This document shows positions 3,182-15,914 of a DNA stretch of 22,566 nucleotides, one piece after another (the first letter of the stretch is position 1; each line of letters starts with the position of its first letter). The stretch lies in IMG/VR virus record IMGVR_UViG_3300037070_004746, positions 1-22,566 of that record; one strand, written 5' to 3'. The translations under genes were made by a program, and so were the position numbers. The notes beneath the pieces were generated by a model. It was not told where the DNA came from and ran no database searches. It saw only the letters and a program-made list of their open reading frames with translations. Source of the DNA: a virus.

Positions 3182-3444
3182 GGCGTGTCGTCTTCGTCCT
3201 CCGCATGTTCGGCCGCTTCCGCTTCGGCGCCCTCGCTGGTGAGCTGGGTGGTGTGCGCCTGAAGCGCCGCAATGACGTCGACCAGCGAAACGCCGGCTTC
3301 ACGTGCGGCGTCGGTCAGTTCCTGTAGTTCCTGTTCGAAGTCCATGGTGTGGCCTCTCCTGTCCTGGAAATAGCTGATCCAATACGCGGCTAAACCTAAC
3401 ACCAATGCGCCGGCCGGCATAATGAGCAGCGCAAGCCAGATCAC
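3178..3444 (-). CDS. Small membrane protein with acidic tail, possible dual start
   Basis: Read from the GTG at 3444, whose GTGA overlaps the stop of the PP-loop gene, the product has 88 residues. A hydrophobic helix (IWLALLIMPAGALVLGLAAYW) is followed by a helical region and a strongly acidic C-terminus ending AEDEDDTP. An ATG further upstream at 3465 is also in frame. An internal ATG at 3345 has a strong Shine-Dalgarno (AGGAGAGG, 7 bases away) and would give a soluble 54-residue acidic protein without the membrane helix. Either two products are made from one frame or the soluble form is the real gene. The family is not recognised. Confidence 0.6.
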   Translation of the reverse strand: MIWLALLIMPAGALVLGLAAYWISYFQDRRGHTMDFEQELQELTDAAREAGVSLVDVIAALQAHTTQLTSEGAEAEAAEHAEDEDDTP

Positions 3445-4220
3445 ACGCCACACATGCCTTCGCATTCGTTCAAAAACAGGTTGAGCTGGCCGCGATCTTC
3501 GGCCGTCGACAGATCAACCTGGTCGAGCGGCTTCAGCGACCGGTGCATGTATTGCTCGCCGCGAAAGCCGGGCTGCAAGCGGATCGCCCGATCGACCTCG
3601 ACCGCGTCAGCGAACTCTTCCGGCGTAAGAGCGCGCCACTGTTCGTCGCTATGGTACGGGCATCCGATGCAGGACGACTTCGGCGGCGTTGGATAGCGGC
3701 GCGATTCCATCCATTCAAGGCACTGCCGCCGACTGATCCAGCGATCGATCAGCGGCCAGCGGTTGGTGATGTACTGCACCCGGCTGTCCTTCATGCGGTA
3801 GGCTTCATCGGACGAAATGCCGATCCACAATTCGCAGCCGCTTTTTGGCCTCCCACCGAGCAGTTCAACGACCTTCCGCTGGATCGGTCTCAGCTTGTAT
3901 TCCTTGGTGCATTGACGCAGCCCCATGCCCTTTTTGCCGCGTGGTGAGATGCTGTACCACGGCACGGCAGCTACACGGCTGGCTGTATTGCCGCGAGCCA
4001 TCGCATCGGCGCGCAAATCGCCGGCCGAGACGACATGCACCGGAAACGGCAGCATTTCACGAAGCGCATTGAGGTGATCGTAGACGGCCTTCGGCTCCCA
4101 GCCCGTGTCGGCGAAGATCGCACAGTCGGGCATCGGCGTGATCTCGCCATGCGCGGCCATGAGCGCCATGGTGGTCGACTGCACGCCAGCCCCCAGCGAG
4201 ATCACCGTGAGCTTGGTCAT
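3441..4220 (-). CDS. PP-loop ATPase, PAPS reductase-like family protein
   Basis: A 259-residue protein of the PAPS reductase/ATP pyrophosphatase superfamily. The PP-loop is SLGAGVQSTT at residues 8-17. FADTGWEP (residues 36-43) is the next conserved strand. Cysteines at 104 (CTKEYK), 129, 167 and the pair C184-x2-C187 followed by PYH could bind a metal or an Fe-S cluster or carry sulfur. The family adenylates or reduces sulfur-containing substrates. Phage members have no settled function, and sulfur modification of nucleic acid, as in DndC, is one possibility. A longer upstream frame exists, but the ATG at 4220 overlaps the previous stop (ATGA) and fits the family's N-terminus. Length agrees with phage homologues. 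Confidence 0.88.
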   Translation of the reverse strand: MTKLTVISLGAGVQSTTMALMAAHGEITPMPDCAIFADTGWEPKAVYDHLNALREMLPFPVHVVSAGDLRADAMARGNTASRVAAVPWYSISPRGKKGMGLRQCTKEYKLRPIQRKVVELLGGRPKSGCELWIGISSDEAYRMKDSRVQYITNRWPLIDRWISRRQCLEWMESRRYPTPPKSSCIGCPYHSDEQWRALTPEEFADAVEVDRAIRLQPGFRGEQYMHRSLKPLDQVDLSTAEDRGQLNLFLNECEGMCGV

Positions 4221-4486
4221 TGCTCGCCGCGCATGATCTCGAGCCGGCGTTCCATGTCGGCCAGCCTTGCCATGTCGCGCTCGTGCACATGGTCGAGCTT
4301 GACCAGTTCGTCGCGGATCGCGGCACGCTGCCGGCGCCATGCAGTATCAATCTCGATCGCCTTGTTGCGCACCATGCTCAAGACGCTGGCGGCCTTGTCG
4401 ACATAGGCGCGCACTTCGTCGCGATCGGTGCGGTGCGCTTCGAGGTTGGCGAGCGATGCGGCCATTGAGCGGGCTGGTTCGGTCAT
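4217..4486 (-). CDS. Coiled-coil protein of unknown function
   Basis: An 89-residue, highly charged protein that is likely to be almost entirely alpha-helical, with heptad-like spacing from about residue 20 to the end (ELVKLDHVHERDMARLADME). There is no membrane segment or cysteine. Its ATG at 4486 overlaps the stop of the gene before it, and its TGA overlaps the ATG of the PP-loop gene, so it is co-translated with that enzyme and may be its partner. No family is recognised. Confidence 0.7.
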   Translation of the reverse strand: MTEPARSMAASLANLEAHRTDRDEVRAYVDKAASVLSMVRNKAIEIDTAWRRQRAAIRDELVKLDHVHERDMARLADMERRLEIMRGEQ

Positions 4487-5900: not shown

Positions 5901-6155
5901 TTAAGCTGCGGAAGCAGGTGTCAGTGCGACTTCAACAGGATAGAGATCGGGGCGAAGAATGTGTCGTGAGACGCCAGAGGCTTTTTCGATCGGGATCGCT
6001 TGGTCAGCCGGAATCATCCCTCGATACTTCCACGTGGTCACATGACTACGGGTCTTGCCAATCAACTCGGCAAGCTTCGTTTCGCCGCCCACAGCTTCAC
6101 ATGCTTTTGTGAGAGCTGCACGCCGTTCGGATCGAACCGCCGCCTGCTCATCCAT
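5901..6155 (-). CDS. Cro-like/YdaS-type transcriptional regulator
   Basis: An 84-residue DNA-binding protein. A helix-turn-helix spans about residues 20-50 (VGGETKLAELIGKTRSHVTTWKYRG as its core), followed by IPADQAIPIEKASGVSRHILRPDLYP. This ending is the hallmark of the YdaS/Cro group of phage regulators. It is divergent from the CI-like gene and separated from it by three operators. The predicted -10 element lies only a few bases upstream of the ATG, and there is no convincing Shine-Dalgarno, so the message may be leaderless. By analogy with lambda it would turn down the repressor gene and commit the phage to lytic growth. Confidence 0.87.
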   Translation of the reverse strand: MDEQAAVRSERRAALTKACEAVGGETKLAELIGKTRSHVTTWKYRGMIPADQAIPIEKASGVSRHILRPDLYPVEVALTPASAA

Positions 6156-6190: not shown

Positions 6191-6225
6191 ACACCAATGT
6201 ATGCGAAAAGCTGTCTACGTTAGTA
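6168..6225. promoter_or_regulatory. Triple operator of the CI/Cro switch
   Basis: Three sites fit TAC-N4-GTA: TACAAATGTA (6168-6177), CACCAATGTA (6192-6201, one change) and TACGTTAGTA (6216-6225). Sites 1 and 3 are followed by GGC and site 2 by TGC. Start-to-start spacing is exactly 24 bp in both intervals. The third site ends three bases before the CI-like ATG. The arrangement resembles the three-site operators of lambdoid phages, and near-identical sites recur at 9150-9180. Confidence 0.7.
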
Positions 6226-6228
6226 GGC

Positions 6229-6573
6229 ATGGCAACACTGGGCGACAGGGTCAGGGAAGAACGGGAGGCGCGAGGATGGAGTCTCCAGCGGCTTGCCAAT
6301 GAAACATCGAAAATCGCACAGGAGAAGTGCCCCAGGGTAACAATCGAGAAGATCGAATCTCGTGGCTCGGGGTATTCGAAATGGGGCCGGCCGATAGCGC
6401 TGGCTCTCGGCGTCAATCCCCATTGGCTTGCGACTGGCGAGGGATCAAAGACTCTCGGGCGGAGCATCGATCGCAAGCTGCAGCTGCTACCGCCTGCCGA
6501 CTATGACGAACTCTACAACCAGTTTGATACGCTTATTGAAGAGCGTCTGACACGCAAGCGCACCGGGACGTGA
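6229..6573 (+). CDS. CI-like repressor, short form (XRE HTH)
   Basis: A 114-residue protein with an XRE-type helix-turn-helix at about residues 5-72 (LGDRVREEREARGWSLQRLA, then VTIEKIESRG, ending ALGVNPHWLATGEG). The last 40 residues are a charged helix. There is no LexA/S24 peptidase domain, so RecA-stimulated self-cleavage is not expected and induction must work another way. The frame is open back to 6055, but the ATG at 6229 begins the standard domain and avoids overlap with the divergent gene. Its position opposite a Cro-like gene across three operators supports a role as the lysogenic repressor. Confidence 0.85.
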   Translation: MATLGDRVREEREARGWSLQRLANETSKIAQEKCPRVTIEKIESRGSGYSKWGRPIALALGVNPHWLATGEGSKTLGRSIDRKLQLLPPADYDELYNQFDTLIEERLTRKRTGT

Positions 6574-8110: not shown

Positions 8111-9106
8111 ATGACCAGCAGATATAACGACCACCCGTTCGCCGCGATCTGGCCGCTGATGACCGACGATGCCCTTATCGCGCTCGCCGAGGACATCAAG
8201 GCCAACGGCCAGCACCTGCCGATCCTGCTCTACCAGGGGTCGATCCTTGACGGCCGCTGCCGCGACCGGGCATGCGGGATCGCCGGCGTCGAGCCGCGCT
8301 ATGAACCGACAGCCGCAGCCAACGACGACGAGGCGCTAGACCTCGTCGTGTCGCTCAACGAGCATCGCCGCCATCTAAGCATGGAAGAACGCGCCTTTGC
8401 CGCAGCAAGACTGGCCAACATGAAGCAAGGCAGTCATTGGGCAAATAAGCGCAAAGAAGAAAAAGTAAAACGTTCATTTGAAAGTTTTACTTCTGAAAAA
8501 CCGCAAAATCACAGTATCCAGGTTTATGATGCTGCGAAGCTTCTGGACGTGTCTGTCCCAGCTGTTGCCCGCGCCCGCGTCATCATCAAGCATGCGCCGG
8601 AACTCGAAAAGGATGTCGTCGCCGGGAACGCGTCACTTTCGGCAACAGCCGCGACCGTCCGCTCAAAGCGCAAGGCGAAGGCCGCCGCCAAGGCACCAGA
8701 GATTACGCCCTACCAGCGCGCACTCGGCAACTATGCACCCAAGGCAAAATTCCTGACCAGCGAGGAAGTCGATCCCGATTTCAAAGGTACGCCGCTGGAG
8801 TTCGCGACCAAGTACGGCCACGTCAATCTCAGCCCGGCCAGCGAGATCGAGCGCGAGGCGGCAACGAAACGTGCCGGCGACCTGATGACGTGGATGAAGC
8901 AATGCATCGGCTCGGCACCGGCCGAGGTCAGCGATGCCGACCTGCTCATCTGGATAACCGGCGACGGCAAGGAGCCGGGCCATCGGCGCGAGAAGCTAGA
9001 AAAGCGCTGGGCTGATTTTGAGGCTCTCTATTCGCGCCTTGCTGGCTTGCGCGCCAAGCTGGAGTCGCAGCTCACCGGCAAGCCGGTCGAGGTCAAGGGC
9101 GGCTAG
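8111..9106 (+). CDS. ParB N-terminal domain protein
   Basis: A 331-residue protein. Residues 5-70 form a ParB-type N-terminal domain: HPFAAIWPLMTDDALIALAEDI, NGQHLPILLY, and ILDGRCRDRA, which corresponds to the nucleotide-binding DGR loop. Residues about 75-190 resemble the helical ParB middle, with LNEHRRHLSMEERA and the helix VYDAAKLLDVSVPAVARARVI. The C-terminal third is charged and helical. The ATG at 8111 follows AAGGGGAG. A local AT-rich patch at 8441-8545 contains a 30-bp near-palindrome. Proteins of this group in phages act as regulators, partition-like DNA binders or nucleases, and the sequence does not distinguish these roles. No partner ParA is present in the window. Confidence 0.82.
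   Translation: MTSRYNDHPFAAIWPLMTDDALIALAEDIKANGQHLPILLYQGSILDGRCRDRACGIAGVEPRYEPTAAANDDEALDLVVSLNEHRRHLSMEERAFAAARLANMKQGSHWANKRKEEKVKRSFESFTSEKPQNHSIQVYDAAKLLDVSVPAVARARVIIKHAPELEKDVVAGNASLSATAATVRSKRKAKAAAKAPEITPYQRALGNYAPKAKFLTSEEVDPDFKGTPLEFATKYGHVNLSPASEIEREAATKRAGDLMTWMKQCIGSAPAEVSDADLLIWITGDGKEPGHRREKLEKRWADFEALYSRLAGLRAKLESQLTGKPVEVKGG
8463..8492. repeat. AT-rich 30-bp inverted repeat inside the parB-like gene
   Basis: Arms AAGTAAAAC (8463-8471) and GTTTTACTT (8484-8492) are perfect complements. The 12-base centre contains TTCATTTGAA, itself almost symmetric. The element lies in a clearly AT-rich patch of a GC-rich gene. It could be a binding site for the encoded ParB-like protein. 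Confidence 0.6.
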
Positions 9107-12142: not shown

Positions 12143-12322
12143 ATGAAGGATAAGCCGATCGGCATCGGCACTGACGTCTTCCTCGCCAAGAGCGGCGTCT
12201 GGTGGGCCGTGCATCCCGTCCGGCGCAACCGTGTCTTTTCGCTGCACACCAAGGACGCCGTGAAGGCGCGGGTGAAGTATGCCGAGATCGTCGACAACTA
12301 TGCCAGGGCAATGAAGGAATAA
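12143..12322 (+). CDS. Small uncharacterised protein
   Basis: A 59-residue protein, MKDKPIGIGTDVFLAKSGVW then WAVHPVRRNRVFSLHTKDAV and a C-terminal helix. It is probably a compact alpha/beta fold. The ATG at 12143 has GGAGG seven bases upstream. The family is not recognised. It is the penultimate gene of the early plus-strand operon and is followed closely by an excisionase-like gene. Confidence 0.65.
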   Translation: MKDKPIGIGTDVFLAKSGVWWAVHPVRRNRVFSLHTKDAVKARVKYAEIVDNYARAMKE

Positions 12323-12325
12323 TCC

Positions 12326-12580
12326 ATGTCCCTGAAGCCTGACCCCAAATCCTACCCGCCGCTCGGCATGTCGCGCGAGGACGCGGCCCACTATATCGGC
12401 ATCGGCCCGACCCTGTTCGACGAGATGGTCAGGGACCGGCGCATGCCGCGGCCGAAGTGCGTCAACAACCGCAAGGTATGGGATCAGGAAGCTCTGCGCC
12501 TCGCGTTCAAGGCGCTGCCCGGCGACGAGGAAAATACGCTCGACGCGCTGTTCGCCGAGGGTGCCAGGCGGCGTGGATAA
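12326..12580 (+). CDS. Excisionase-like HTH protein, copy 1
   Basis: An 84-residue protein with the pattern YPPLGMSREDAAHYIGIG, then LFDEMVRDRRMPRP, then VWDQEALRLAFKALPG. This is the MerR/AlpA-like winged helix seen in excisionases and phage regulators. It is clearly paralogous to the product of 12766-13002 on the other strand. The two genes point at each other across a 185-bp gap full of TGGATAA boxes, and the TAA stop of this gene lies inside the first box. It is made from the early operon, so it could provide the Xis activity during induction. Its C-terminus has a short extra tail (LDALFAEGARRRG). Confidence 0.78.
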   Translation: MSLKPDPKSYPPLGMSREDAAHYIGIGPTLFDEMVRDRRMPRPKCVNNRKVWDQEALRLAFKALPGDEENTLDALFAEGARRRG

Positions 12581-12756
12581 TCGGGCGGCAGAGTTGGATA
12601 ACCGGGCGGTACGATGCGGGAACAAGATGGATAACCGGCCTCGCAAGTCTTTGATTTTTGTACTGGCATGCCTCAACATGATACAAAGTCAAGGCCCCTA
12701 TCATTTCAAAGGCTTACGAGGCATTTATCCACACCCCTTGTACAATGATTTATCCA
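12574..12756. repeat. Five TGGATAA boxes, candidate attP or origin
   Basis: TGGATAA occurs on the plus strand at 12574, 12595 and 12628 and on the minus strand at 12725-12731 and 12750-12756, so all copies point inward. The first two share a longer GGATAAYCGGGCGG block 21 bp apart, and the third shares GGATAACCGG. Box four extends to TTATCCACA, the exact DnaA-box consensus. The others differ at the last bases. The centre (about 12641-12690) is AT-rich, with TTTGTA/TACAAA arms and the palindrome GGCATGCC. The gap is the only convergent intergenic region near the integrase. Arm-type recombinase or Xis sites and a DnaA-dependent origin are both possible. Confidence 0.65.
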
Positions 12757-12765
12757 TAGGCACGG

Positions 12766-13002
12766 TCAAGACGCCTTGCGGTCGAAGAAGTTCACATGAC
12801 CCTGGTGCGGCAGGTCGCTGAAAGCCATGTCCAGCTCGACCCGATCCCACACGACGCGACCATCGATCTGGCGCGGTTTCGGCATGCGCTTGTCGACGAT
12901 CATCTCATCGAACTTGGTGGTGCTGACGCCGATGTAGCGCGCAGCCATTTCGCGGCTCATGCCGCGGGGCGGATAGGCAATAGCATCTGGCTTCAGCGTC
13001 AT
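12766..13002 (-). CDS. Excisionase-like HTH protein, copy 2
   Basis: A 78-residue protein, MTLKPDAIAYPPRGMSREMA then YIGVSTTKFDEMIVDKRMPKP and VVWDRVELDMAFSDLP. It shares this whole pattern with the plus-strand protein at 12326-12580 and carries the same winged-helix layout. Its ATG overlaps the integrase stop (ATGA), so it is made with the integrase. The longer open frame to 13227 lies antisense-free but inside the integrase gene and is rejected in favour of the coupled start. A protein linked this tightly to an integrase is probably a recombination directionality factor or a regulator of int. Confidence 0.8.
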   Translation of the reverse strand: MTLKPDAIAYPPRGMSREMAARYIGVSTTKFDEMIVDKRMPKPRQIDGRVVWDRVELDMAFSDLPHQGHVNFFDRKAS

Positions 13003-14150
13003 CGGTTTCCGTTTCCCTGTTTCGGCACCAGCCGCAGCATGCCCTGCGAGGACATCCGGACCTGCGAGGCCTCGCGCGAATATAGCTCGGCGTGGGCGAT
13101 CGCATCGTGGCCGAGGATGTCCATCAACTGCCGGGTCGAGGCACCGGACTCGGCCAGCATGACGCCGAGCGTCTTGCGCAGACCGTGCAGGACATAGCCG
13201 CGCGGCAGCCCGGCCTGCGTCGTCCACCGCTTCATCGACTCGCTGAGCGAGCGCTCGGCATATGGCTCGCCGGTCTGCTTGGTCAGGATGGTGCCATTGC
13301 CGCGACGCAGCGGCGCCAGCGCCTCGGCCAGCATCGGCGTCAGCGGCACGAACAGGGTCTTGCCGCCGCCCTTGCGGTTGCGGCCCTTGTGCTGGGTGAA
13401 CTCGAAGCCCTGCACCCGCTCCTGCACGCCGTCAGCATTGATGACCTTCTTCCATCCGAGCTGGCTCCATGTGACGCGCGCGACATCGCTGCGACGGTCG
13501 CCAAGCCATAGCGCCAGCGCATAGGCGGTACGCGCCTGCGTGCCTGGCACCCAGTAGCCCTCGAATTGCTCGCGCACCTCCAGTGGCCAGGCCTTGTGGC
13601 CGTTCGTGCTCGCCTTGACCGGGATGTCGGTGCAGGGGTTATGGTCGATCCAGTCCTCGTCCATCGCCGCCACGATCATCTTCTTCAGCACCGTCATCAG
13701 GCGGCGCGCCTTGAACGGCTGCCGGACGTGCTTGCCGAGAATCGCCTTGATGTGCTTGCGGCGAACCTCCGAGATTTCGATCGCGCCCCAGCGGCTGCCT
13801 GGAACATCCGCGACCAGCGAGTCGAGGAACTCCTCGGCCTCGGTCTGGTAGCCGGCCTTGGTGCTGAAATTGTCGAGGATGTCCCATTCGCCGGATCGCT
13901 TGACCAGCCGCCATGCGGCATCGAAGGACTTGGGGACCACGGCACCGGGCAATCCAACGACCTCGGCCTTGAAGGAAGAGGGGTCAAATCGCCGCCCCTC
14001 GATCGCCGCCTGATAGGCCGCATCAAACAGTTTGGTATGCGGCTCGCCGGGCAGATAGATCGCCTTGCCGGCCTTGCGGAAACGCCAGCGGACGGTGCCG
14101 GCGAGGTCGGTGATCGACGAGACGCCGGGATAGTCGGATAGCTTAGCCAT
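12999..14150 (-). CDS. int: Tyrosine recombinase / phage integrase
   Basis: A 383-residue integrase. The N-terminal part carries a short arm-binding-like region, residues about 95-180 form the SAM-like core-binding domain (YQTEAEEFLDSLVAD onward), and residues 190-370 the catalytic domain. Catalytic residues visible are R219 in LGDRRSD, K255 in TQHKGR, H322-x2-R325 in LHGLRK, H348 in ILGHD, and the nucleophile Y357 in AELYS. All are present, so the enzyme should be active. The ATG at 14150 overlaps the stop of the upstream DUF551-like gene. It is followed by an excisionase-like gene and the box array. Phage genes lie on both sides, so this is not the edge of an integrated element. Confidence 0.95.
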   Translation of the reverse strand: MAKLSDYPGVSSITDLAGTVRWRFRKAGKAIYLPGEPHTKLFDAAYQAAIEGRRFDPSSFKAEVVGLPGAVVPKSFDAAWRLVKRSGEWDILDNFSTKAGYQTEAEEFLDSLVADVPGSRWGAIEISEVRRKHIKAILGKHVRQPFKARRLMTVLKKMIVAAMDEDWIDHNPCTDIPVKASTNGHKAWPLEVREQFEGYWVPGTQARTAYALALWLGDRRSDVARVTWSQLGWKKVINADGVQERVQGFEFTQHKGRNRKGGGKTLFVPLTPMLAEALAPLRRGNGTILTKQTGEPYAERSLSESMKRWTTQAGLPRGYVLHGLRKTLGVMLAESGASTRQLMDILGHDAIAHAELYSREASQVRMSSQGMLRLVPKQGNGNR

Positions 14151-14404
14151 TAGAGTTGCCCCCTCGCAGGATCGTCAGGCAGCGGTTGCCAGAGCGTCGG
14201 GATCGCGCCGCTCCTGCTTGCGAAATGGTGGCCGCTCCAATGGGCAAAGTCGATGAATTCAGTTGGCGCTGGCGAGAACGCTGGGCGCTCGATGCACCAC
14301 GCCAAGAACCGCGTGCCGTCCCTTGGAGCCGTGTCCATGTCTCGCCACGCTTCCATCAGAACGGCGAGTCCAGTAGAGCCGCCGGGATAATCAGGATGCT
14401 TCAC
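14150..14404 (-). CDS. DUF551-like protein
   Basis: An 84-residue protein with the DUF551 pattern: W-R-D-MDTAPRDGTRFLAW at about 20-36, then WSGHHF and a closing WQPLPDDP. The family is widespread in phages and has no known function. The GTG at 14404 has GGGAG seven bases upstream and overlaps the end of the HTH gene by 14 bases. An internal ATG at 14356 lacks a ribosome-binding site. It is coupled to the integrase by TAATG at 14152-14148. Confidence 0.75.
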   Translation of the reverse strand: MKHPDYPGGSTGLAVLMEAWRDMDTAPRDGTRFLAWCIERPAFSPAPTEFIDFAHWSGHHFASRSGAIPTLWQPLPDDPARGQL

Positions 14405-14582
14405 GGATGCGCTCCCTTGTGGCCTCGAGGGCGATCAGCAGCAGCTCCGGATAACGGAAGCCGTTGCCCTGCTCGATGTATTCCAGCGTGCGCCGGGGAA
14501 CGCCGATCTGCTCAGCGGCCACCCTGGCCGGCACCTTCCCACGCCAGGCTTTCACCTGGCGCGCGAGTTCGGTTGCATCCAT
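14391..14582 (-). CDS. Very small HTH protein
   Basis: A 63-residue protein: MDATELARQVKAWRG, then VPARVAAEQIGVPRRTLEYI, then QGNGFRYPELLLIALEATRE. The middle is a compact XRE-like helix-turn-helix covering most of the chain. AGGAGG lies six bases before the ATG at 14582, which is among the best ribosome-binding sites in the window, so the longer open frame to 14810 is not needed. It could regulate the integrase operon in which it sits. Its target is unknown. Confidence 0.75.
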   Translation of the reverse strand: MDATELARQVKAWRGKVPARVAAEQIGVPRRTLEYIEQGNGFRYPELLLIALEATRERIREAS

Positions 14583-14593
14583 GGACGGCCTCC

Positions 14594-14770
14594 TTAGCCC
14601 AGAAACAGTTTGGCGAGCGCGGCGCCGGCACCCAGCAGGGCAGCAGCGGCCAAGGCGGCGGCAGATACGATCTGCCACGGCATCCACCGGACCTCGGCCT
14701 GCAGCTTGTTGATCTCTGCCTGCAGTTTCAGGGTGCGGGCGATCTGCTCGTCGGCCTCGAGCGCGGTCAT
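14594..14770 (-). CDS. Small membrane protein with N-terminal coiled coil
   Basis: A 58-residue protein. An amphipathic charged helix comes first (ADEQIARTLKLQAEINKLQAE), then MPWQIV, then one hydrophobic helix rich in alanine (VSAAALAAAALLGAGAAL) and KLFLG. Its ATG overlaps the stop of the upstream gene (ATGA) and its TAA is 11 bases before the next ATG. The topology is like XhlA-type or other small lysis-associated membrane proteins, but no motif fixes the role. Confidence 0.62.
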   Translation of the reverse strand: MTALEADEQIARTLKLQAEINKLQAEVRWMPWQIVSAAALAAAALLGAGAALAKLFLG

Positions 14771-14988
14771 GGCTTGCGCTCCAGTGCGGTGATGCGTTGG
14801 CCTTGCGCATCGACGATCATGCGCAGCCCTTCGACGCGGCCATCGGTGCCGCGCATCATGTGGAAGCCGCCGTCGATCTCGGATCGCATGGCCGACAACT
14901 GTTCCTCGACACGGATCAGCCGCTCGTTCATATCTGCGCGCAATGCACGCAATTCGCGCAGCACGATGTTTTCAGGTTCGGCAGTCAT
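14767..14988 (-). CDS. Coiled-coil protein
   Basis: A 73-residue soluble protein: MTAEPENIVLRELRALRADM, then heptad-like helices (RLIRVEEQLSAMRSEIDGGF) and GQRITALERK. It resembles the short coiled-coil proteins commonly found next to phage small membrane proteins. The ATG at 14988 overlaps the upstream stop (ATGA). The longer frame to 15048 is rejected because it ignores this coupling. It probably works with one of the adjacent membrane proteins. Confidence 0.68.
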   Translation of the reverse strand: MTAEPENIVLRELRALRADMNERLIRVEEQLSAMRSEIDGGFHMMRGTDGRVEGLRMIVDAQGQRITALERKP

Positions 14989-15203
14989 AGCAGGATCACC
15001 TTCCAGAGAACGCCAACGGTCAGCGCGATGTTGGCGCCGACCATCCATTTGAGCAGCGTCAGGTTGAGCAGCATCAGGTCGGCATCGGCCTTGGTCCGCC
15101 GGATTTGATAGCCGGCGACCTCCTCGGCTGCCTTGCGGGCGTCGTCATCGGTTGCACCGGCGCTGATCAGCGCCTGATGCAATGAGCCAGACATGAGGGC
15201 CAT
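14985..15203 (-). CDS. Small C-terminally anchored membrane protein
   Basis: A 72-residue protein. The N-terminal two-thirds is a charged helix (SAGATDDDARKAAEEVAGYQ and IRRTKADADL). The end is a hydrophobic segment (LLKWMVGANIALTVGVLWKVILL) that should anchor it. The layout recalls DUF1640/CCDC90-like coiled-coil plus membrane-anchor proteins of phages. The ATG at 15203 overlaps the stop of the secreted protein gene (TGATG) and has GGAGG eight bases upstream. An ATG at 15218 is less well placed. Confidence 0.7.
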   Translation of the reverse strand: MALMSGSLHQALISAGATDDDARKAAEEVAGYQIRRTKADADLMLLNLTLLKWMVGANIALTVGVLWKVILL

Positions 15204-15415
15204 CAGAATCGCCTCCACGCGTCGACCTCGATCCAGCCGGATTTTTCGCAGGCATCATTTGCCCTATAGGCATCGTGGCTTTTGCTGCTGTCCACGATGT
15301 CAGTGGCAAAAGTTCGCGCGCCTTTTAGACAGGACCATTGCATGTAGCGATCCCGTGCGGCGACGCCGCCGGCTGTGATGATGATGGCGCAGGTAGACGC
15401 GATGAGTATCTTCAT
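15203..15415 (-). CDS. Small exported protein
   Basis: A 70-residue protein with a signal-peptide-like start (MKILIASTCAIIITAGGVAA, likely cleavage near VAA-RD). The mature part of about 50 residues has two cysteines (WSC and NDAC) that could form a disulfide in the periplasm. It is the first gene after the promoter at 15490-15462. GGGG lies eight bases before the ATG at 15415, while the ATG at 15421 is too close to it. The family is not recognised. Envelope location and company of small membrane proteins suggest superinfection exclusion, lysis control or a lysogenic function. Confidence 0.65.
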   Translation of the reverse strand: MKILIASTCAIIITAGGVAARDRYMQWSCLKGARTFATDIVDSSKSHDAYRANDACEKSGWIEVDAWRRF

Positions 15416-15461
15416 TTTCATTACCCCAATGGACCGGCAACCATTGCCGCCCCGCACCGTC

Positions 15462-15490
15462 CATATACGTGCAGCACGTATCCATGTCAA
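15462..15490 (-). promoter_or_regulatory. Promoter with 17-bp palindromic operator
   Basis: On the minus strand a perfect TTGACA (15490-15485), a 17-bp spacer and TATATG (15467-15462). The spacer and the first -10 bases contain a perfect 17-bp palindrome, ATACGTGC-A-GCACGTAT on the plus strand (15465-15481), so a bound dimer would block polymerase. A second perfect palindrome, TACTGA-TCG-TCAGTA, lies just upstream at 15498-15512. It would drive the small-protein/integrase operon. The cognate regulator is not known. Confidence 0.72.
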
Positions 15491-15526
15491 CGGAAAATAC
15501 TGATCGTCAGTAATTATTCGGGCAAC

Positions 15527-15555
15527 AAAAAAAGGGAGGAGCCGAAGCCCCTCCC
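15527..15555 (-). terminator. Strong intrinsic terminator
   Basis: On the minus strand a 9-bp GC-rich stem (15555-15547 with 15542-15534, one G-T wobble), a TTCG tetraloop and seven T (15533-15527). This is a textbook rho-independent terminator. It ends the tail operon and separates it from the promoter at 15490. Confidence 0.9.
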
Positions 15556-15561
15556 AATCAT

Positions 15562-15627
15562 CGATAGCCCGCTGGGCTGCGCGGGACTATCGGCTAGCAG
15601 CCCCGCCAGCGCGCGCGAGACGCTGGC
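15562..15627 (-). other. Structured 3' region before the terminator
   Basis: Between the holin-like gene and the terminator are two further hairpins. One is at 15562-15592, with CGATAG and CCCGC arms, one bulge and an 8-base loop. The other is at 15605-15627, with GCCAGCG/CGCTGGC arms and a 9-base loop. With the terminator they make a non-coding, highly structured tail of about 150 bases. It may be a processed 3' RNA or only mRNA stabilisation. Confidence 0.4.
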
Positions 15628-15683
15628 CGGTGATTTCCCCGTCCGAACGGCTGACGCGCGTCCTAGGGCCGTTTCTGTGGCGT

Positions 15684-15914
15684 CTAGCCGGCACCTGACG
15701 TGATGATGTGGATCGTCGGGATGCCGAGCAGCAGCGCGACCAGCATGTAAAGGCCGATCAGCGCGACCACGATGATGAAGCCGCGCCTTACCTGCTCCGG
15801 CACGGCGAGCTGCATCCACGAGCAGAACCACACGATGATCGCACCTATCAGCAGCAGGATCGCGATGACGATCGCGATGTTGATTACTCCAAGCAGCACA
15901 CCAGTCAGGGTCAT
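15684..15914 (-). CDS. Holin-like protein with two membrane segments
   Basis: A 76-residue, strongly hydrophobic protein with two clear membrane helices (about residues 5-35 and 45-70) joined by a short loop with QVRRG. Size and topology match class II holins and other small phage membrane proteins, but sequence alone does not prove holin activity. The ATG overlaps the upstream stop (ATGA). It is the last gene before the terminator of the tail operon. If it is the holin, it lies far on the map from the endolysin at 1050-1739. Confidence 0.65.
   Translation of the reverse strand: MTLTGVLLGVINIAIVIAILLLIGAIIVWFCSWMQLAVPEQVRRGFIIVVALIGLYMLVALLLGIPTIHIITSGAG

Follow-up and report, generated by a model that had tools for sequence, protein, structure and literature searches.

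The stretch of DNA analysed here, referred to as the window, is the 22,566-base IMG/VR virus record IMGVR_UViG_3300037070_004746. Two small genes encoding excisionase-like proteins, named xis1 and xis2, converge in it on a gap of 185 bases (12581-12765), as had been claimed for this site, and a tyrosine integrase gene (int) is read towards the same gap. The five TGGATAA boxes described earlier, three forward and two reverse, were all confirmed at their places. The heptamer occurs six times in the window against 0.73 expected, a number reached in none of 100 shuffles; the sixth copy, at 8951, lies away from the array. In the left arm the repeat unit is longer than the box itself (15 nt, at spacings of 21 and 33). 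The presumed core is bracketed by a 17-nt inverted repeat (12638-12654 and 12706-12722). The features of the locus are listed below; the sister is the phage carrying the closest relative of the window integrase (L002).

12326-12580, plus strand: xis1, 84-aa winged-helix (wHTH) excisionase-like protein; ends the rightward gene run, its TAA stop inside arm box 1
12574-12580, plus strand: arm-type integrase box 1, P arm, predicted; TGGATAA match in the 15-nt repeat unit
12595-12601, plus strand: arm-type integrase box 2, P arm, predicted; TGGATAA match in the 15-nt repeat unit
12604-12635, minus strand: candidate excisionase-binding repeats; two overlapping motif matches, 11 bp apart
12628-12634, plus strand: arm-type integrase box 3, P arm, predicted; TGGATAA match in the 15-nt repeat unit
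12644-12656, minus strand: IHF-consensus-like site, P side; 0 mismatches
12670-12697, no strand assigned: probable strand-exchange core region; 28 bp identical to the sister, both immediate flanks differing
12704-12716, plus strand: IHF-consensus-like site, P' side; 1 mismatch
12725-12731, minus strand: arm-type integrase box 4, P' arm, predicted; TGGATAA match, with TGGATAG boxes on the same side of the sister
12750-12756, minus strand: arm-type integrase box 5, P' arm, predicted; TGGATAA match, with TGGATAG boxes on the same side of the sister
12766-13002, minus strand: xis2, 78-aa wHTH excisionase-like protein; not at this place in the sister
12999-14150, minus strand: lambda-Int-like tyrosine integrase with an N-terminal arm-binding-type domain; Pfam PF00589 (E 5e-12) and AlphaFold2 model
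14391-14597, minus strand: small HTH protein upstream of int, kept in the sister

The AlphaFold2 model of the integrase had a mean pLDDT of 92. Residues R219, H322, R325, H348 and Y357, which we take to be the catalytic residues of a tyrosine recombinase, were invariant in 52 of 52 aligned integrase sequences, including that of the window. Two structures tied as closest to the model: lambda Int, at Z 20.3 with an rmsd of 2.9 over 263 residues, and Tn1549 Int, at Z 20.0. Full-length lambda Int chains aligned with model residues 5-369 (Z 19.7 and 19.2); the high rmsd of this alignment (11.6 over 309-310 residues) is probably due to domain placement. Since the full-length chains align from residue 5, the integrase has a lambda-like N-terminal domain, whose modelled residues 10-51 form three strands and one helix, and the fold suggests that this domain binds the arms. 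As in the window, int is preceded by a similar-looking HTH gene in L069, L082 and L083. Further upstream, a terminator-like hairpin at 15534-15555 (minus strand, nine pairs, T-rich tail) may separate the int genes from the leftward genes beyond it.

Besides one close relative, that of the sister (89% identity), the integrase scans returned loci in bacterial genomes (37) and in viral contigs (24, the sister's own among them). The family is found mainly in Hyphomicrobiales genomes, as the records name them, and the host of the window phage is probably an alphaproteobacterium. When the zone from 15 bases before to 70 bases after the int stop was inspected (leaving out 14 of 80 integrases, with too little downstream DNA), at least three TGGCTAACC-like boxes were present in 34 of 66 distinct relatives, against 0.03 expected from shuffles. 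Fewer than two were found in 28 of the 66, some of which carry another box, e.g., TGGAAACC. With the TGGCTAACC consensus, one box is counted for the window and none for the sister, since their own box is TGGATAA or TGGATAG; in the window, xis2 also intervenes. In 29 of the 34 relatives having at least three boxes, a box contains the int stop codon. Over all 66 distinct integrases, 34 have the int stop within an arm-type TGGCTAACC-like box (L009, L011, L012, L014-L017, L021, L023-L025, L029-L033 and others), so that coding sequence and attP overlap.

The family also provided integrated prophages. In 25 of the 37 genome loci a tRNA gene begins no more than 200 bases from the int match, on the opposite strand in 24 of these 25, and a 16-bp tRNA-Glu core was looked for in three lysogen genomes (G002, G008 and G009). 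In Xanthobacter sp. YC-JY1 (G002, locus L030) the core was repeated 43.4 kb away and in the lysogen L036 (G009) 40.4 kb away, whereas the two copies in G008 were on separate contigs. The same boxes occur at both inner sides of the prophage, of the TGGCTAACC type in G002 and of the TGTCTAA type in G009. Box sequence thus varies from phage to phage and agrees between the two arms of one phage, as expected of integrase arm sites. The comparison with attL and attR that had been proposed as a check could be made for two lysogens of the family, which show core and boxes at both ends; a lysogen of the window's own type was not found. The more distant relative phi2LM21 (int 27%) has the same xis-int order and an attachment site annotated in tRNA-Phe (GAA) beside int; a passage of PMC5537653 describes its integration in tRNA-Phe with a 17-nt repeat. 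A third copy of the 16-bp core in Xanthobacter sp. YC-JY1 (G002:C1:4181750-4181765, L157), 20.8 kb past the second, points to a further element inserted in tandem at this tRNA-Glu.

In the window, as in the family, the same arm-type box stands on both sides of the core. The sister has a three-box TGGATAA arm like that of the window and, on the int side, two TGGATAG boxes, the first of which holds the int stop. The window core sits between two sites resembling the IHF consensus WATCAANNNNTTR, as does the tRNA-derived core of relatives, and an inward-facing pair of such predicted sites around the core was present in 10 of 22 attP regions picked by eye, window and sister included, while about none was expected from shuffles.

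These comparisons with relatives, together with the two mapped lysogens, lend strong support to the proposal that this gap is an attachment site. The gap is most likely an attP of the lambda type with the boxes as integrase arm-type sites, and as a whole the best explanation, to which we assign a probability of about 0.9, is the attP of a temperate phage run by Int, IHF and excisionase. Its order would be box 1, box 2, excisionase repeats, box 3, IHF-like site, core (within 12670-12697), IHF-like site, box 4 and box 5. The comparisons themselves show the architecture of the arm boxes, attL and attR in the family, the order of the genes, the relationship of the excisionases and purifying selection on xis1; protein binding, expression timing and the roles of Xis1 and Xis2 are what we infer on this basis. 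The integrase would contact the boxes through its N-terminal domain and the core through its catalytic domain, with the DNA between them bent by IHF, and an excisionase filament formed on the repeats lying between box 2 and box 3 would shift the reaction to excision. Integration at the core would leave xis1 at one prophage end and int with xis2 at the other; int and recombination directionality factor (RDF) genes at opposite prophage ends are thus what the attP layout leads us to expect for the window phage.

That both small genes are excisionase-like, as proposed, is supported by sequence, fold and phylogeny. Their products are indeed paralogous (57% identity over 65 aa, E 2e-27), and the predicted winged helix agrees with an AlphaFold2 model of Xis2 (mean pLDDT 77.6), whose nearest solved structures include excisionases at modest scores. 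The best Foldseek match was the excisionase RdfS (E 0.005), and the fold matches included RdfS, Pukovnik Xis and GIsul2 Xis (best VIA Z 6.9). The PHROG matches of the small proteins were 25900 (transcriptional regulator) and, weakly, 66 (excisionase). No Pfam match was obtained for the two proteins at E 1, and HTH_17 was recognised in 35 of 59 relatives at E 0.1; an Xis profile matched nothing among PDB sequences. In the xis tree, whose support values are rough owing to the few columns and a bootstrap that had not settled, xis1 grouped with L002, L120 and L064 (90/84) and xis2 fell into a clade of 17 rows (95/90). A recent copying of xis1 into xis2 is not supported, given these separate clades, and the two look like old relatives. 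The integrase tree placed the window and the sister in a clade of 12 rows (99/97); 9 of its 10 other members, L010 being the exception, carry an excisionase of the xis2 clade, which makes xis2 look like the usual partner type.

The arrangement of these genes is rare in the family. An xis gene accompanies int in 77 of 79 loci, and both of the remaining loci start near a contig end. Among the 79 distinct integrase genes, xis precedes int on the same strand in 71 cases and on the opposite strand in four; only in the window and the sister does it lie across the attP and converge on int, and only the window has two xis genes, as judged from locus flanks of at most 4-10 kb, in which a second xis at the far prophage end could escape notice. 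A search of 20 lysogen genomes, all of which gave a strong xis match, revealed no second close copy; five had a weak second match (37-50% identity), four on other contigs and one on the same contig about 9 kb off. The window and the sister are collinear in pieces, and the segment from 12726 to 13008 measures 282 bases in the window versus 26 in the sister, the difference being mostly xis2, which is absent from the corresponding place in the sister, where xis1 stands alone. An inversion of the int-attP cassette relative to the early operon would give the layout of the sister, after which xis2 would have been gained by the window phage or lost by the sister.

Between the window and the sister, xis1 shows 10 synonymous and one nonsynonymous codon differences plus one codon indel (dS 0.19, dN 0.01), i.e., strong constraint at the level of codon comparison. 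According to the original prediction, one of the small proteins is expressed together with the early operon and the other together with the integrase, which strand and gene order suggest for xis1 and xis2, respectively. Xis1, produced with the early genes upon induction, would then be the likely switch to excision, and xis2 would encode a second factor, either auxiliary or, as proposed earlier, competing. A full lysogeny switch, in which Xis1 appears only early in the lytic cycle and Xis2 with Int, integration separates the two genes, and the ratio of the paralogs competing for the repeats between boxes 2 and 3, and not the presence of one of them, sets the direction, seems to us unlikely in this complete form. 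It is somewhat more plausible, if still doubtful, that within the same attP xis2 is an AlpA-like transcriptional regulator of int, or a relic, rather than a recombination factor. The label of its best PHROG and its absence from the sister would fit this, as would a passage of PMC11963761 according to which the wHTH factor RdfS acts on promoters too. Against it, xis2 is intact and has a dN/dS of approximately 0.12-0.23 relative to four relatives (with dS near saturation in three), and it belongs to the very xis clade that accompanies the integrase clade of the window. A dual role of xis2, in recombination and regulation, is possible.

The candidate sites of excisionase action were deduced from the attPs of other family members, one arm of which contains repeats (TTYCCG...GTTCYCG) spaced by about one helical turn. 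A motif model was built from 16 such arms chosen by eye, with the window and the sister kept out; one of 17 arms (L028) was dropped as the anchor rule failed, and L004, L005 and L038 were viewed and left out. Across all positions of the window, the two highest-ranking matches were 12604-12624 and 12615-12635 on the minus strand, both between boxes 2 and 3, and in the sister the first and third best matches fell in its attP. In the leave-one-out analysis, which covered 14 of the 16 arms, the omitted arm ranked first in 11 cases, second in two and third in one. The repeats between boxes 2 and 3 are thus probable excisionase sites, as far as a motif comparison can indicate. Direct repeats one helical turn apart are the form of RDF sites described in PMC7498355, and for RdfS a passage of PMC11963761 states that a consensus motif was not found. 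In L026, L085 and L147 the arm with the excisionase-like repeats is found between int and the core, so that attP appears to be flipped relative to int in these relatives.

Given that both xis genes flank the array, the TGGATAA boxes themselves might be read as excisionase sites instead of integrase arm sites. We consider this improbable, because relatives with a single xis upstream of int still have attP boxes, and because the boxes vary by phage and agree across arms, whereas a separate and more constant repeat motif was seen in one arm. Even less credible is a replication origin or DnaA-titration site, which the original prediction named as the main alternative and in which the boxes would be DnaA boxes around an AT-rich unwinding element. 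One box does belong to a perfect TTATCCACA (12725-12733), the sole TTATNCACA of the window, but the only TTATNCACA of the sister is at 5151 of L002, outside its attP, so that a single perfect box, not kept in the sister's attP, stands in place of a conserved cluster. The boxes of the family (TGGCTAACC, TGTCTAA or TGGAAACC) are not DnaA boxes and adjoin tRNA att cores in lysogens, and the GC skew, which had been suggested as a check, turns from +0.02 to −0.03 near the gap, a weak change of sign of a kind seen at many positions of the window. That the gap is merely a bidirectional terminator between convergent operons is the least probable explanation, since, for all that the 17-nt inverted repeat can form a hairpin on both strands, a scan of 12300-15700 gave three sites (one of them in the gap) versus 2.3 in shuffles, and the boxes and core are better explained as attP; the gap may terminate transcription as well.

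The attP reading can be set beside known systems. The lambda attP has arm boxes on both sides, IHF sites and excisionase repeats in one arm. The window resembles it in the predicted tyrosine integrase with an N-terminal arm-binding-type domain, the arm boxes flanking the core, the IHF-like sites, the candidate excisionase repeats in one arm and the reading of int towards attP; it differs in that int and xis1 are on opposite strands and on opposite sides of attP, with a second xis between int and attP. The Bacteroides conjugative transposon CTnDOT has two small DNA-binding excision factors, Xis2c and Xis2d. As predicted for the window, it thus combines two such factors in one element, but it is no phage and has the factor genes together in one operon. 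The Rhizobiales prophages of the type of Agrobacterium phage Rivra share with the window the integrase family (Rivra int 45%), the kind of arm box and the excisionase family; they differ from the window in carrying a single xis, as a rule upstream of int and in the same direction, and in frequently using tRNA cores. Two excision factors in one element are already known from CTnDOT, as are, from KplE1, int and RDF genes at opposite prophage ends.

The latter arrangement is described for KplE1 and its relatives in passages of PMC2951348 and PMC3509656. In the KplE1/HK620/Sf6 module (IntS, TorI), as these passages present it, the intS promoter overlaps attL and there is a single RDF, whereas int of the window is read towards attP and accompanied by two xis genes. 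ICEMlSym(R7A) has, according to a passage of PMC11963761, an attP with five arm-type sites, to which a wHTH RDF binds at about one subunit per 10 bp. Its IntS/RdfS system is like the window in the five arm-type sites and in RdfS being the best Foldseek match to Xis2; it differs as a conjugative element with the box TGKTGGTATC and a single RDF, whose gene belongs to a conjugation operon at a distance from intS. Among the papers listed in searches of the open PMC literature, none was found to describe a phage attP with an RDF gene on either side, and the 'two excisionases' in a passage of PMC7379572 are one in each of two phages.

Several searches were directed at the attB and the lysogen of the window phage itself. 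With the 24-bp core and up to 3 mismatches, 391 Bradyrhizobium-family genomes gave only one match, at 3 mismatches, and with the 17-bp core and up to 1 mismatch, 397 genomes of the order gave one match, at 1 mismatch; by estimate, both are within chance, and the reversed control patterns had no match. The window core was found in the sister alone among viral contigs, in none of 10 relatives' genomes, and in plasmids with one match (E 2). For a lysogen of the same type, genome contigs scanned by two short peptide patterns contained no integrase above 51%, and the 391 genomes none above 47%. A tRNA target was rejected for the window phage, as its core, unlike those of many relatives, does not look like a tRNA by eye; over the whole window, no Rfam match reached the gathering score.

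By this analysis, an unexplained box array becomes a defined attP with predicted binding sites, and an attP anatomy of arm boxes, IHF-like sites and excisionase repeats is obtained for a mainly Hyphomicrobiales integrase family. The window and the sister form a natural pair with two versus one excisionase genes around the same attP, in which it can be asked whether a phage can use two directionality factors.

Elsewhere in the window, divergent genes for YdaS/Cro-like (5901-6155, minus strand) and repressor-like (6193-6573, plus strand) HTH proteins probably form a lysis-lysogeny switch. The segment 9700-11839 (plus strand) encodes a RecE-like exonuclease (YqaJ) followed by a RecT-like annealing protein. 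On the minus strand, 3441-4340 encodes a PAPS-reductase-like protein (phrog_424) and 1739-2884 a collagen-like tail fibre protein with Gly-X-Y repeats.
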